Below, in pieces: positions 34,027 to 42,523 of a stretch of 64,000 nt of DNA. The stretch lies in NCBI GenBank assembly GCA_937931205.1, contig CALHBF010000008.1, forward strand, positions 1-64,000. The letters run 5' to 3'. A model generated the notes under the pieces. That model ran no database searches. It was not told the DNA's origin and saw nothing but the letters and a program-made list of their open reading frames with translations. Positions within the stretch are counted from its first letter, which is position 1; each line of letters opens with the position of its first letter. This DNA is from an uncultured Bacteriovoracaceae bacterium. Lineage in GTDB: Bacteria > Bdellovibrionota > Bacteriovoracia > Bacteriovoracales > Bacteriovoracaceae. Made by a program: the position numbers and the translations under genes.

Positions 34027-35700
34027 TTAATCGAATTTTTGGTTCAGATTACTAATAGCAGTGGCCATTAGTAACGAGTGAGCACGAATTTTACGGAGTG
34101 CAACAACCATATCAGAGTAAGTAAGGGCCGTTACTGGAAGGTATGATCCCTTAGAAATACGATCTAAATGCTTTTCTCTCATCGAATCTGCCCAAAGCTG
34201 AAGCTCATGGCTCTTCGTTTCAATTCGAGTCATATCGATTTCTTCTGACTCATAAAGTCCGTGAGTAACAAGATCAAAGAATCCAAGAACTTCATCAAAG
34301 AATTGGAAAAACTCTTCACGAGACTCACCTGAGAAAGTTTCATCATTCTTAAAACGATCACGGTAGTTTGCTAATCTTTCAACATAGTCGGCAACACTCT
34401 CCATCTCATCAGAGATGCGAATAAGGGCCTGAACTTGCTCAGACTGCTGATGACTCATTGGCTTTTCCATCACGTAACAAAGGAACACTGTTATTTCTCT
34501 GTGAATATTATCCGTGATGCGCTCATAATCGATAATTTTCGCAAGCATCTTCGGATCATATTCTGCTTTTTCCCAGAACTCACGATTAAGCTTATACATG
34601 CGTTTTACGATATCACGCATTTTCTTTAATTCACTTTCTGCCTGAGCAATAGAAGCAGCAGGAAGCATATTGGCCGGGTCTCCTAAAACAAGAAGGTGAG
34701 ATTTCTCCTTCACTTCTTTGTCGGGAGTTAGCTTTGTCACAAATGCAGCAAGTTGATTAATAAAAGGAATAAACAACAACGTTGCAGTTACGTTAAAAAG
34801 CGTATGAGCAAGAGCAATGTGCTGAGCTACATAAGGAAAACTTCCATCTTCTGCTACAAAACGTGGATTTCTTGGAATCATCCAATCAACGAGATCAAAG
34901 AAATAAGGTAGCCACAGCATCATGATGAAAACCCCAAAGAGGTTAAAGCTTGCATGAGCACGGGCAGCACGACGGGCATTAACGTTACCACCTACCGAAG
35001 CGAGAAGTGCCGTAATGGTTGTTCCAATATTCTCCCCTAAAACTAGACAGATGGCCGTGGTAAAGGGAATAACCCCAGAAGTGGCCATGGCCATCGTTAT
35101 CCCCAGCATCGCTGATGAAGACTGCACGATCATCGTCAGGAGACAACCCATCATGATCGAAGCCAGATAAGCTCCGTAGTGAGTTCCAGAGAAGTAAGCA
35201 ATCGAATCAAGGAAAGGCTTACTTTCTCTCAAAGGGACGAAAGCTCCTGACATTAATTTTAATCCCATAAAAATAAGACCGATACCAAGGATGGCCTTAC
35301 CGATATGCTGCCAACGATCTGATTTAGAGAAAAGTGCTGGAATGAAACCGATACCTACAAGAAGTAGTCCGTATTTATCAACTTGAATGGAAATGATCCA
35401 ACCAGTGATGGTTGTTCCGATATTAGCTCCGAAGATAACTCCGATAGCTTGAGTAAGAGACATAAGACCCGCGTTTACGAAGCCCACTGTCATGACGGTA
35501 GTAACTGAAGAAGATTGAACAAGACAAGTAACTAAGAGACCGACACCAACTGCTAAAAAACGATTTGAAGTAAGTGAGTTGATGATTTTTCTAATGGCGT
35601 CTCCGGCCACTGCTTGAATCCCGTCGGACATGAACTTCATTCCGAAGAAGAAGATCCCTAAACCTCCAAGCAAGGTATAGATAATTGTAAAGGCTTCCAT
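34027..35700 (-). CDS. Na/Pi cotransporter family protein with C-terminal PhoU-like domain
   Basis: GLGIFFFGMKFMSDGIQ, repeated QSSS motifs (TCLVQSSSVTT, TMIVQSSSAMLG), GANIGTT/GENIGTT. Confidence 0.93.
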   Translation of the reverse strand: MEAFTIIYTLLGGLGIFFFGMKFMSDGIQAVAGDAIRKIINSLTSNRFLAVGVGLLVTCLVQSSSVTTVMTVGFVNAGLMSLTQAIGVIFGANIGTTITGWIISIQVDKYGLLLVGIGFIPALFSKSDRWQHIGKAILGIGLIFMGLKLMSGAFVPLRESKPFLDSIAYFSGTHYGAYLASIMMGCLLTMIVQSSSAMLGITMAMATSGVIPFTTAICLVLGENIGTTITALLASVGGNVNARRAARAHASFNLFGVFIMMLWLPYFFDLVDWMIPRNPRFVAEDGSFPYVAQHIALAHTLFNVTATLLFIPFINQLAAFVTKLTPDKEVKEKSHLLVLGDPANMLPAASIAQAESELKKMRDIVKRMYKLNREFWEKAEYDPKMLAKIIDYERITDNIHREITVFLCYVMEKPMSHQQSEQVQALIRISDEMESVADYVERLANYRDRFKNDETFSGESREEFFQFFDEVLGFFDLVTHGLYESEEIDMTRIETKSHELQLWADSMREKHLDRISKGSYLPVTALTYSDMVVALRKIRAHSLLMATAISNLNQKFD

Positions 35701-35722: not shown

Positions 35723-35986
35723 TTAATCAATCCAAATAGCAAATGCGATCGGAATAAGAATATAGAGGATGGTATCTCTAACTAAATAAAATAAAAAAAA
35801 GTAGATAAAAGCCTTTGGTCCCTTCATGAATAACTTTTCAAGACCTAAGTATTGGGCCTTTTTACTCATGGCAACCATAAATTTTGTCTTACCATAGTGT
35901 TTAACAAAAAATGTCGCAGCGCCATCGACCTTACGATCAAACGCTAAAAACCGATCTTTAAACCAAGCAACCATAAGAAAACCCAA
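35723..35986 (-). CDS. Small hypothetical membrane protein co-oriented with Na/Pi transporter
   Basis: 87 aa (or 83 aa from MVAWFK), C-terminal hydrophobic segment; 22 bp from the transporter gene. Confidence 0.6.
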   Translation of the reverse strand: MGFLMVAWFKDRFLAFDRKVDGAATFFVKHYGKTKFMVAMSKKAQYLGLEKLFMKGPKAFIYFFLFYLVRDTILYILIPIAFAIWID

Positions 35987-36023
35987 ATTTGTGAATGTTA
36001 AATATCAAATCTTCATTAAAGTT

Positions 36024-36046
36024 ATTGTCAAGATTGTGTCAAGAAT
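36024..36046 (+). promoter_or_regulatory. Pho-box-like direct repeat, site A
   Basis: ATTGTCAAGATTGTGTCAAGAAT: TGTCA-N6-TGTCA (11-bp period). Confidence 0.6.
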
Positions 36047-36106
36047 TAGAAGCCTAAATAAATAACCATGAGAAAAAGGCGGGGAAAAACCTAAGAATAT
36101 TTCATT

Positions 36107-36129
36107 ATTTATGACACTATTGTGACAAT
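36107..36129 (-). promoter_or_regulatory. Pho-box-like direct repeat, site B (opposite orientation)
   Basis: Reverse complement ATTGTCACAATAGTGTCATAAAT: TGTCA-N6-TGTCA, 18/23 identical to site A. Confidence 0.6.
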
Positions 36130-36159
36130 CTTCCGATTTTAATTTATTAACCTTAGCCC

Positions 36160-37092
36160 ATGATTAACGCTCTAAAACTTTGGAACTTCACAGCAGGAGT
36201 TCTTCCACCAGAAGAACTGATGGCCCATGCTTTCGTATTGAAAACATGTCAAAGAACTATAGTGCTTACTCTACAAGATAAGATTATTAAGTCTCCTACC
36301 CTTTCCCATCAATTATATGTTGGACAAGACTCCTACCTATTCCTGCTTGAAACAATTTGCGGATTGAAATCAAAACTAGTTGGGGAAAATGAAATCGTTG
36401 GGCAATTTAAAGATGCCTACAAGGACTATCTTTCACGCGCTGACCGCGATAACAAACTATTGATTGTGCTGGAAAAGCTCTTTAAAGACGCTAAAGATAT
36501 CAGAACCCAGTACCTCATTGGCATCTCGCAAAAGACTTATGCTTCGCTTACACGCAGACATCTTCTTTCTCGTGTTCATGCTGATCATATTGTGGTGCTA
36601 GGTTCAGGTCAGTTGGCCGAAGATCTTATTAATCAATTTAAGAAAAAAACAAAGGTTTCTATTTGTGCTAGAAATCTTACTCGTGTTTCCGAACTTTGCC
36701 GTCTCCATCAGATTGAGTCCATCGACTGGGAACACAGAGACCAGCTTCACCAATACGCTTTCATCGCCAATACAATTGGTTCGCAATCAGTTCTATGGGA
36801 TGAGAGTTTCTTTGAAGCATGGGCCAGTAATCATTCAAAAAAACTTTTTGTGGATCTAGGTTCACCTTCTGTCATCCAAACTCCAATGACCTATATTGAT
36901 GGAATCATTAGACTAGATGACATTTTCAACGAAGGTGCAGTCGTTGAGGGTCAAAAACAAACTCAAATAGCCCTTGCCCGTGCTGCCATGCTTAGTATCA
37001 GCGAGCGTCGTAAGGACCTCTTTGAGAAAAAATTAAATAAACTGGCGCCGCTACCTACTCCTCATTTAACTTCAGGCGTGAGATATCTCTAG
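36160..37092 (+). CDS. hemA: Glutamyl-tRNA reductase (short form)
   Basis: VLKTCQRT, GENEIVGQFKDAY, VLGSGQLAEDL; 310 aa. Confidence 0.88.
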   Translation: MINALKLWNFTAGVLPPEELMAHAFVLKTCQRTIVLTLQDKIIKSPTLSHQLYVGQDSYLFLLETICGLKSKLVGENEIVGQFKDAYKDYLSRADRDNKLLIVLEKLFKDAKDIRTQYLIGISQKTYASLTRRHLLSRVHADHIVVLGSGQLAEDLINQFKKKTKVSICARNLTRVSELCRLHQIESIDWEHRDQLHQYAFIANTIGSQSVLWDESFFEAWASNHSKKLFVDLGSPSVIQTPMTYIDGIIRLDDIFNEGAVVEGQKQTQIALARAAMLSISERRKDLFEKKLNKLAPLPTPHLTSGVRYL

Positions 37093-38630: not shown

Positions 38631-39890
38631 ATGAACTCTAAAGAACTTTTTGAAAAGTCTCTCAAACTAGTCCCAGGCGGAGTTCACTCTCCTGTTCGTT
38701 CTTTCAAGGGACTTCATACTACACCTCGTTTTATTAACCGTGGTGATGGTGCTTATATTTGGGATGAAGACGGAAAAAACTATATCGATTTCTGTATGAG
38801 CTTCGGGCCACTTATTCATGGGCACCAAGACAAAGATATTAAAGCTGAAATTATCAGCGCTCTTGATAATGGCTGGACTTTCGGAGCTTGTGAAAAATAC
38901 TCTCTGGAACTTGCCGAATACATCATTGGCCGTATTCCTTTTATCGAGCAAATCCGTTTTGTGAATTCTGGAACAGAAGCTGTTATGACTGCTGTTCGTC
39001 TTGCTCGCGGAATTACTGGTAAAGCAAAAATCGTAAAATTCAATGGCTGCTATCACGGTCACCTCGATGCCATGCTCATTAAGGCAGGCTCAGGTCTAGC
39101 TGGCGAAGCCGAAGCTTCTTCAAAAGGTGTTACTGATATTCAAGCAAAAGATACACTTATCTGTGAACTTGGAAACCTTGATGAAGTGAAAGAAGTATTC
39201 AAACAATTTGGTAATGAGATCGCTTGTATCTTCATTGAACCACTTCCAGCAAACAATGGTCTTCTCATTCAAGAGCAAGCCTTCCTACAAGGACTGCGTG
39301 ATCTGTGTACCCAATACAATGCACTTCTCGTTTTTGATGAAGTGATCTCTGGTTTCCGTATTGGATTCGGTGGAATGAGTGAGAAAACTGGTATTACTCC
39401 AGATCTAGTGACTTATGGAAAAATCATCGGCGGCGGTATGCCAGTTGGTGCAGTGGCCGGTCCTAGAAAACATATGGAATTCCTTGCTCCAGTTGGACCT
39501 GTTTATCAGGCAGGAACTCTTTCAGGAAACCCAGTTGCGATGCGTGCGGGTCTAGTGAATCTGCAAAAGCTAACAAAAGAAGCTTATGCAACACTAGAAG
39601 AGAACACAAAAAACATCGTGGCCCTACTGCAAGACTGGATGGATAAAAATGGTTTCGCAGATTATCAGATTATCCAGTACGGCTCTCTTTTTTATCCGAT
39701 CAACACAAAAGATAAGCTAACAAATATTACTCAGCTTCCAAGCAATATGGGTGAGCGTTTCAAGGCCCTTTTTGAAGTGCTTCTTAACAAAGGTATTTAT
39801 CTTGCGCCAAACGGCTACGAAGTTGGTTTCGTCAGCCTAGCACATGATAAATCGGTTCAAGAGGAATTGAAAAAACGCCTATGGAACTAA
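38631..39890 (+). CDS. hemL: Glutamate-1-semialdehyde 2,1-aminomutase
   Basis: PGGVHSPVRSF, VNSGTEAVMTAVRLARG, VFDEVISGFR, TYGKIIGGGMPVGA. Confidence 0.97.
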   Translation: MNSKELFEKSLKLVPGGVHSPVRSFKGLHTTPRFINRGDGAYIWDEDGKNYIDFCMSFGPLIHGHQDKDIKAEIISALDNGWTFGACEKYSLELAEYIIGRIPFIEQIRFVNSGTEAVMTAVRLARGITGKAKIVKFNGCYHGHLDAMLIKAGSGLAGEAEASSKGVTDIQAKDTLICELGNLDEVKEVFKQFGNEIACIFIEPLPANNGLLIQEQAFLQGLRDLCTQYNALLVFDEVISGFRIGFGGMSEKTGITPDLVTYGKIIGGGMPVGAVAGPRKHMEFLAPVGPVYQAGTLSGNPVAMRAGLVNLQKLTKEAYATLEENTKNIVALLQDWMDKNGFADYQIIQYGSLFYPINTKDKLTNITQLPSNMGERFKALFEVLLNKGIYLAPNGYEVGFVSLAHDKSVQEELKKRLWN

Positions 39891-40804
39891 ACAAGACCCG
39901 CCGCTGGTTTTACGGACTAACTCTTTTCTGGGTTATCTTCCTTCTCGTTTTAGGGAGCTGGTGGCTTTATCTTGTTTTTGAACTCCACTCAAGTCTAAGT
40001 GCCTTGCGCCTTGATGCATTGGCCGGACAGGAGAAATTTTTGAATATGATGAAATGGGAAGGTTCCTTTTTCTTCATTGTTCTCATCATTCTGGGATTCT
40101 CTCTTACTATCATGTACCTGCGTGATATGAGAAAAACTCAAGCACTAGGTGCTTTCTTTTCATCCTTATCTCATGAACTAAAAACTCCGCTGGCCAGTAT
40201 GCGCCTGCAAGCAGAAGTCATTAAGGATTTGATCGAAGATGAATCTCATTCTCATGAGCAACTCTCAAAGCTTACGACCCGTCTGATTGAAGACACTCAT
40301 AAACTTGAAGGTGAGTTAGAAAAGAGTCTACAACTATCTCGCATTGAAAACGATGCCCCTCTTTCTCTCGCTCCCCTATCACTTGAGCGTTATCTTAAAA
40401 GACATCAGACAAAACTTGCTCCAACTCATCAATTAGAATTAGTGTTTCAAGATTCTGCACGAGAAGTGATGGCCGATGAACTTGCTCTCAATATGATTTT
40501 TAGAAATCTTTTTGAGAACACCAAAAGACATCAGGCCACCTCCACTAAAATTAGAATCACGACGGTAAAACAAGGTGAATATATTCACGTTCTTTATGAT
40601 GACTTTGGGCTTCCTTTCCAAGGAAACTTCAAACAACTAGGAACGCTGTTTTATAAGTTCAATTCAACCAAAGGCTCAGGTCTTGGTCTCTTTCTTATCA
40701 AAAACTTGATGAAAAAAATGCAAGGACAGCTTGAAATTGAACACAACGGACACCTAACTTTTAAACTTACTTTTAGAGCTCCGGCAGGAGACTCGCATGA
40801 GTAA
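39881..40804 (+). CDS. Sensor histidine kinase, two TM segments
   Basis: SLSHELKTPLASMRLQAE H-box, GSGLGLFLIKNLM G-box; overlaps hemL by 10 nt. Confidence 0.93.
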   Translation: MELNKTRRWFYGLTLFWVIFLLVLGSWWLYLVFELHSSLSALRLDALAGQEKFLNMMKWEGSFFFIVLIILGFSLTIMYLRDMRKTQALGAFFSSLSHELKTPLASMRLQAEVIKDLIEDESHSHEQLSKLTTRLIEDTHKLEGELEKSLQLSRIENDAPLSLAPLSLERYLKRHQTKLAPTHQLELVFQDSAREVMADELALNMIFRNLFENTKRHQATSTKIRITTVKQGEYIHVLYDDFGLPFQGNFKQLGTLFYKFNSTKGSGLGLFLIKNLMKKMQGQLEIEHNGHLTFKLTFRAPAGDSHE

Positions 40805-41495
40805 TTTTTCAGTCCTACTGGTTGAAGATGAAGAGAACCTAGGCAGCACCCTTAGGGATTATCTCCGTACAAAAAGATTTGAAGTTGAATGGGCCTCGAC
40901 TGCCAAAGAAGCTCGATCTCTTTTTAGCAGTATGAAGCCGGCCATCGCCATTTTAGATATTGGTCTGCCTGATGGGAATGGAATTGAGCTGGCCAAAGAA
41001 TTTCGAAAGCTTTCTCGCGAATGCGTTCTTCTTTTTTGTACTGCTCTCAACGATCCTACACTTCGAGTAGAGAGTTTTGAATTAGGTGCAGAAGATTACA
41101 TCACCAAGCCTTTTGAACTCAAAGAACTGACTCTAAGACTTGATCGCATTTTAAAGTCGAGAAAGACAGCTCTCCATAATCCGGATGAGTATACCTTTGG
41201 GAAACTTATTTTTTGGCCAAAGCGTTTTGAAATTCAAGATGCCGAAGGTTTAATCAGCTCACTTGGACAAAAAGAATGTGCCATCTTGGAACTTCTTCTT
41301 GAGCTAAAAAATGAAGTTGTTTCACGCGATCAGATGATTGAACTGATCTGGGGCGAGAACAGTTTCCCTACCAACAGAACAATTGATAACTATATCGTTA
41401 AATTACGCAAATGGGCCGAATCCGATAATGAAGGAATTCTCAAAATTTCTTCCGTTCGCGGTATTGGCTATAAACTTGAATTAAAAGAGGGATAA
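40797..41495 (+). CDS. OmpR/PhoB-family response regulator
   Basis: VLLVEDEENLG receiver, AILDIGLPDGNG, C-terminal wHTH TIDNYIVKLRKW...SVRGIGYKL. Confidence 0.95.
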   Translation: MSNFSVLLVEDEENLGSTLRDYLRTKRFEVEWASTAKEARSLFSSMKPAIAILDIGLPDGNGIELAKEFRKLSRECVLLFCTALNDPTLRVESFELGAEDYITKPFELKELTLRLDRILKSRKTALHNPDEYTFGKLIFWPKRFEIQDAEGLISSLGQKECAILELLLELKNEVVSRDQMIELIWGENSFPTNRTIDNYIVKLRKWAESDNEGILKISSVRGIGYKLELKEG

Positions 41496-41497
41496 TT

Positions 41498-42523
41498 ATG
41501 GGTATTTTTGAGAATCGTGGAAATACACTTCCAGTATGGTTTATGAGACAAGCGGGCCGCTACCACTCTCATTATCAAAATATAAAAAAAGATTCTGACT
41601 TCATGACTATGTGTAAGAATCCTGAACTAGCTTGTGAAGTTACTCTTGGACCAATCCAAGATTTTGGCTTCAATGCTGCTATCCTTTTCTCTGATCTTCT
41701 CTTCCCCCTTGAGCAGATGGGACTAGGGCTTTCTTATAAATCAGGACCTCCTACACTAGAGTGGCACCTGCAAAGCCCAGCTGACATTCAAAAATTAAAA
41801 GTAACTCAGCCATCTAAGGAATTCTACGATTTCCAAGGAAAGGCCTGTGCTCTTTTAAGAGAAAGACTTCCAAAAGATGTAACTCTTATTGGTTTTGTTG
41901 GCGCTCCTTTCACTCTTTATACTTATGCAGTTGAAGGCAGCCACGCAGGAAATCTCGTGAGTGCCAAGAAAGGACTTTTTGACGGACGTTTTGAAGCTTT
42001 CACTAAACTTCTTCTTCCAGAACTTCTTGAAGAGATGTCTATCCAAGCTTCAAATGGAGCTGATGCTGTTGCTCTTTTTGATACAGCTGCCGGTGAGCTT
42101 TGTGTGCAAGACTATAAAGAATTTATCATTCCTAAGATCACTGATCTTCTAGCGAAATTTAAAGCTCGTCACCCGCAAACAAAGGTGATCTATTACTCTA
42201 AGCACACGCAAGCTCAATTTGTTCGCGCGCTCGATCTTAAGAACATCGATGTTATCGGAGTGGACTGGAGATGTGACTTGGTTGAAATTCAAAAACTTCT
42301 TCCTCCACATGTTTATGTTCAAGGTAACCTTGATCCAGCTTGGCTTCACCTTCCAGGTGAATTGCTAGAGAAGAAAGCGAGTGCTTATTATCAAGATCTT
42401 CGCGAACGTGGGCTTGATTTTAATCGTTGGATTGCAGGTCTTGGTCACGGAGTTCTTATTCAGACTCCAGAAGAGAACGTTAGAAATTTGGTCAAACTTA
42501 TTCAAAAACAAAAAATTTCATAA
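41498..42523 (+). CDS. hemE: Uroporphyrinogen decarboxylase
   Basis: PVWFMRQAGRY, FSDLLFPLEQMG, GFVGAPFTLYTY. Confidence 0.97.
   Translation: MGIFENRGNTLPVWFMRQAGRYHSHYQNIKKDSDFMTMCKNPELACEVTLGPIQDFGFNAAILFSDLLFPLEQMGLGLSYKSGPPTLEWHLQSPADIQKLKVTQPSKEFYDFQGKACALLRERLPKDVTLIGFVGAPFTLYTYAVEGSHAGNLVSAKKGLFDGRFEAFTKLLLPELLEEMSIQASNGADAVALFDTAAGELCVQDYKEFIIPKITDLLAKFKARHPQTKVIYYSKHTQAQFVRALDLKNIDVIGVDWRCDLVEIQKLLPPHVYVQGNLDPAWLHLPGELLEKKASAYYQDLRERGLDFNRWIAGLGHGVLIQTPEENVRNLVKLIQKQKIS

Follow-up and report, generated by a model that had tools for sequence, protein, structure and literature searches.

Two near-identical direct repeats lie in the short intergenic region between a Na/Pi cotransporter operon and a heme operon, which raises the question of which regulator reads them and on behalf of which genes. 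The exact pattern TGTCA-N6-TGTCA occurs only twice in the window (the whole 64 kb stretch of DNA that was analysed), at the two sites that a first-pass annotation had described: site A (36026-36041, plus strand, TGTCAAGATTGTGTCA) and site B (36112-36127, minus strand, TGTCACAATAGTGTCA). That annotation was also right to describe them as direct repeats with an 11-bp period, the operator type of the OmpR/PhoB family. On the opposite strand the pattern reads TGACA-N6-TGACA, and in this sense site B, 32 bp upstream of hemA, points toward hemA and site A toward the small membrane protein and Na/Pi genes (Table 1), such that the orientations first assigned (B toward Na/Pi, A toward hemA) were swapped. 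The genome holds five exact matches in 3.08 Mb, without enrichment over a reversed control pattern (also five). The remaining three all fall within open reading frames, and from the control rate the chance probability of two exact matches in a given stretch of ~170 bp is, by simple arithmetic, of the order of 1e-7. The plain motif count is uninformative about the sites, and their reality is decided by conservation rather than by the pattern alone.

Table 1 Features of the heme and Na/Pi operons and the region between them, in window coordinates; the boxes are given in the TGACA sense.
Feature	Coordinates	Strand	Basis
Na/Pi cotransporter with PhoU domain	34027..35700	-	Domain matches; in relatives not always a hemA neighbour
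Small membrane protein, conserved hemA neighbour in the family	35723..35974	-	Start ATG placed at 35974 after comparing relatives
Possible extended -10 (TG-A-TATTTA) in the promoter of the small-protein and Na/Pi genes, ~21 bp past site A	35999..36004	-	Inference
Second hem-box-like repeat (site A), TGACACAATCTTGACA, directed at the small membrane protein/Na-Pi operon	36026..36041	-	Weight matrix, orthologous position
Site B, probable hem-box TGACACTATTGTGACA (TGACA-N6-TGACA) of the hemA operon	36112..36127	+	Conservation, spacer test, top weight-matrix score
Predicted -10 TAACCT, 20 bp past the box and 6 bp ahead of the hemA ATG	36148..36153	+	Sequence, TAnnnT spacing
hemA, divergent glutamyl-tRNA reductase	36160..37092	+	GlutR_N, Shikimate_DH; TIGR01035 62.6 bits, below cut-off
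hemC, hydroxymethylbilane synthase, 510 aa	37094..38626	+	Matched to bifunctional HemC/HemD-type protein of Leptospira
hemL, glutamate-1-semialdehyde aminomutase	38631..39890	+	Family profile match
HemK-like sensor histidine kinase (HisKA, HATPase, two TM segments by eye, short loop)	39881..40804	+	
HemR-like response regulator of the OmpR family, proposed to bind both sites	40797..41495	+	Identity, reciprocal best match, tree
hemE, uroporphyrinogen decarboxylase, last operon gene	41498..42523	+	Domain and family profile matches

We assessed conservation of site B within the genus using loci found via the Na/Pi protein, and it was exact in all 21 orthologous loci, with a consensus on the hemA strand close to TTATGACAYTTCTATGACAA. 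Conservation in relatives, a check proposed by the first-pass annotation, was thus found, though for a reason other than phosphate control (see below). A flanked 19-bp form of the site was present in 22 of 26 genus genomes, as a single copy in 21 of these, and always 32-34 bp from the start of hemA as located by protein search. The sole extra copy, in genome G004, lies within an open reading frame and was rejected as a further target, as were the three other exact boxes in the window genome. Among the four genomes without the 19-bp form, three retained the 16-bp box, while in the fourth hemA was not found by protein search. With a weight matrix made without genus sequences, site B was the best match of the window (24.7 bits) and site A the second best (17.4 bits), followed by a position scoring 5.4 bits.

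The box was then assessed across the phylum by taking HemR-like regulators from 192 genomes and adding about 80 fetched loci to the earlier ones, of which the 90 loci holding hemA plus kinase or regulator were counted over ~300 bp upstream of hemA. Exact TGACA-N6-TGACA was found in 62 of these loci and a match with at most one mismatch in 71, counts that are no formal test since related genomes are not independent, although the sample covers many families of the phylum. Fifteen other spacers gave no exact match in the same loci and one to six matches with one mismatch. Heme operon gene order was retained almost everywhere in the sample, and the box stayed upstream of hemA with the kinase-regulator pair where the Na/Pi gene was missing, which led us to reject an operator role for site B at the Na/Pi genes. 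Six hemA loci, two of them short contigs (L101, L102), showed neither a kinase nor a regulator match in the stretch; the box was absent from all six, the best candidates having three to five mismatches. One locus with the pair but without heme genes (L193, genome G117) was treated as uninformative. Boxes of the site B type occupy the same promoter position across a phylum made up mostly of predators, and also in the spirochete Leptospira.

Most loci lacking the box at one mismatch or fewer carried CTACA-N6-TGACA and belonged to one family. Upstream halves reading CTACA or TTACA occur in divergent genera of the family of the window genome, indicating that specificity has drifted, which we counted against reading site B as a hem-box; the change is a lineage-specific drift of the operator. 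The downstream TGACA was fixed in the loci with such upstream halves (L077, L081, L084, L178, L179, L182, L183, L190-L192, L195, L196). In one of these, L191 (genome G188), the heme operon seems broken up, with kinase and regulator divergent beside hemA and no hemC, hemL or hemE in the stretch, and a CTACACTTCCATGACA box is still found upstream of hemA.

The motif of site B is identical to TGACA[N6]TGACA, the hem-box published for HemR, which is the OmpR-family response regulator in the HemKR system of Leptospira (PMC11426443). We consider it very probable that site B is a hem-box, serving as operator for the HemR-like regulator whose gene lies in the same heme operon. That operon, hemA-hemC-hemL-kinase-regulator-hemE, contains both partners of the two-component pair and has the same order, apart from hemB, as the operon of L. 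interrogans (hemA-hemC-hemB-hemL-HemK-HemR-hemE), where an exact box, TGACACTTCTTTGACA, lies upstream of hemA. The window kinase matched L. interrogans HemK at 33.6% identity (E 3e-46). The window regulator matched L. interrogans HemR at 40.5% identity, its best match in a 7.3-Gb plasmid collection in which the HemR-bearing replicon is filed as a plasmid. In the reverse search of the window genome, L. interrogans HemR returned this regulator at 1.2e-47, followed by the next at 8.1e-28, and the recognition-helix region (FPTNRTIDN-IV-LR) is near-identical between the two. A quick tree placed the candidate HemRs and Leptospira HemR in one group (SH-aLRT 99) that excluded seven further OmpR-family regulators of the window genome. 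Within a 13-row set L. interrogans HemR (L111) fell inside the Bdellovibrionota HemR group (SH-aLRT 99), the tree containing one Leptospira sequence only. The second PDB match of the window regulator was 4q7e, which we take to be the HemR receiver domain. On sequence comparison the window regulator is orthologous to HemR, and the gene that the first-pass annotation had put forward as candidate binder was the right one. Its phospho-acceptor D54 is invariant in the alignment and the kinase has a HisKA domain; membership of the HemKR group would further imply phospho-transfer from kinase to regulator and phospho-dependent binding.

The first enzyme of the operon, HemA, is short and very divergent, scoring 62.6 bits against a TIGR01035 cut-off of 209.55, and L. 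interrogans HemA is likewise short and divergent and annotated just as a hypothetical protein. In one relative (G029:C41:6799-7485) the regulator match contains an in-frame TAG, which may reflect an assembly error or a broken regulator.

At the hemA promoter, a TAnnnT element followed the box at 20 bp in 61 loci out of 88 and at 19 bp in 12, compared to ~1.3 loci per other distance, and a -10-like TAnnnT lies 19 bp downstream of the box in L. interrogans. With the predicted -10 at 20 bp, the box would cover the -35 region, which is expected of a class-II activator promoter of the OmpR/PhoB type. With six bases between the predicted -10 and the hemA ATG, transcription is expected to start at or beside the ATG, such that hemA mRNA is probably near-leaderless. 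In the circuit we infer, a tandem dimer of phosphorylated HemR would occupy both TGACA half-sites, spanning the -35 region and switching on transcription from the -10 located 20 bp downstream. The product would be a hemA-hemC-hemL-hemK-hemR-hemE mRNA whose 5' end coincides with the hemA ATG or precedes it by a few bases, and the circuit would be autoregulated. By analogy with Leptospira, porphyrin precursors (5-aminolevulinate or a product) might trigger HemK phosphatase activity and hence shutdown, a response that for 5-aminolevulinate has been described in L. biflexa alone (PMC11426443). In an L. biflexa hemKR mutant under standard conditions, no significant change of the hemA operon was seen (PMC11426443), so the strength of activation may be condition-dependent.

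Site A presents a more evenly divided case. We see an even chance that it is the ordinary promoter of the small-protein/Na-Pi operon, with TTGACA as its -35 and the exact box match arising by coincidence. Site A overlaps this -35-like hexamer, its TTGAC half is the only one strongly kept, and its exact form is special to the window genome, relatives keeping TTGAC[A/G/T]-N5-TTCACA-like repeats at the same place. Five loci (L006, L013, L015, L022 and L025) carry TCACA or TAACA as the second half, with hem-box scores no better than those of many shuffles, and inspection by eye of other genera in the family revealed no site A. Against an ordinary promoter, the best-scoring spot of the region was the position orthologous to site A in nearly all genus loci, if often degenerate and low-scoring there, its second half reading TCACA or TAACA, and none of 300 shuffles scored as high at site A in the window genome and in L007, L009-L012, L020 and L023. 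A -10-like TG-N-TAT also follows 20-21 bp downstream, as at hemA, within a TTTGnTATnnn conserved at that distance (~20-21 bp) in most relatives. Site A may therefore, with a likelihood of about a third, be a weaker second HemR box facing the small-protein/Na-Pi operon. That HemR binds both boxes, bringing the small membrane protein-Na/Pi operon and heme synthesis under joint control, is likewise possible, if on balance doubtful. The joint control of Na/Pi and heme genes proposed in the first-pass annotation could stand in this form, via site A and HemR, but not via PhoB. If true, HemR acting on both boxes would link heme to the transport of phosphate or another anion, a link not known from Leptospira.

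The Na/Pi gene itself is often not beside hemA in other genera of the family. The small membrane protein had no Pfam or NCBIfam match, and in the family its gene (~83 aa) is conserved beside hemA in divergent orientation, even in loci that lack the Na/Pi gene (L076-L081, L083, L085 and most of L177-L196). The protein may be functionally part of heme synthesis.

Returning to site B, the downstream TGACA overlaps the -35 position, so part of its conservation could be due to promoter sequence alone. Taken further, site B would be merely the core promoter of hemA, with that TGACA in the expected place of the -35 hexamer, an incidental second half-site and no regulator. We find this very improbable, as the upstream half recurs at the exact 11-bp period in many families and at no other spacing exactly, and the six hemA loci of the same phylum that showed no HemKR match are without the box. 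The 20-bp gap between box and -10 also exceeds the 16-18 bp usual between -35 and -10 of sigma-70 promoters.

The weakest reading, that both sites are Pho boxes through which PhoB couples phosphate uptake to heme synthesis, draws on the Pho-box spacing of E. coli, on the adjoining Na/Pi transporter with its PhoU domain and on PhoB-like regulators below the family cut-off in the genome, but is very improbable given that the best matches in this 86% complete genome scored 227.6 bits for PhoB (cut-off 296.2) and 154.5 bits for PstB (cut-off 343.2), that no box with one mismatch or fewer lies near the best PhoB-like gene (C15:130035), that the motif count equals that of the control, and that the box tracks hemA with HemKR where the Na/Pi gene is missing and was not found where HemKR is missing. 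We therefore rejected a Pho regulon, and with it the phosphate control that had first been proposed: in the genome scan suggested as a check, the motif was absent at other Pho genes, the five exact matches being the three within open reading frames and sites A and B, which leaves no set of boxes upstream of several phosphate genes. The likeness to E. coli PhoB extends to an OmpR-family regulator, an 11-bp direct repeat and a box overlapping the -35 region, whereas the window regulator scored only 124 bits against the PhoB cut-off of 296.2, the sequence reading toward the regulated gene is TGACA instead of TGTCA, and no Pho regulon was detected in the window genome.

The hem-box and its regulator most resemble Leptospira HemKR, with which they share TGACA-N6-TGACA upstream of hemA, an OmpR-family regulator, a kinase with the same domain layout, a location of both genes within the hem operon (as in L. 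interrogans) and a -10 at 19-20 bp from the box. They differ in belonging to another phylum, in an operon without hemB, in the drift of a half-site to CTACA in some Bdellovibrionota genera and in the possible second box facing the Na/Pi operon. In L. biflexa, HemR has further targets, among them hmuO and exbBD, whereas no other exact intergenic box was found in the window genome. The Leptospira HemKR system and its hem-box were reportedly also treated by Morero et al. in 2014. In Corynebacterium, the heme-responsive two-component systems ChrSA and HrrSA likewise control heme synthesis genes, but with NarL-type rather than OmpR-type regulators and another operator. In the literature searched, HemKR studies concerned Leptospira only, and we found no report of a hem-box in Bdellovibrionota beyond a remark on gene linkage by Louvel et al., who mentioned a kinase-regulator pair linked with heme genes in Bdellovibrio bacteriovorus (data not shown; PMC2266917).

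The position of Leptospira HemR inside the Bdellovibrionota group suggests that the HemKR module, or the hem operon with its regulator, was transferred between phyla. HemKR would be the usual control of the heme operon in much of the phylum, including predatory bacteria, and our analysis supplies its predicted operator together with the layout of the promoter, in which the box is followed after 20 bp by a -10 and then by a near-leaderless hemA. These organisms offer settings other than Leptospira for testing the HemKR signal and mechanism, and the hem-box provides a prediction on how predators may tune heme synthesis.
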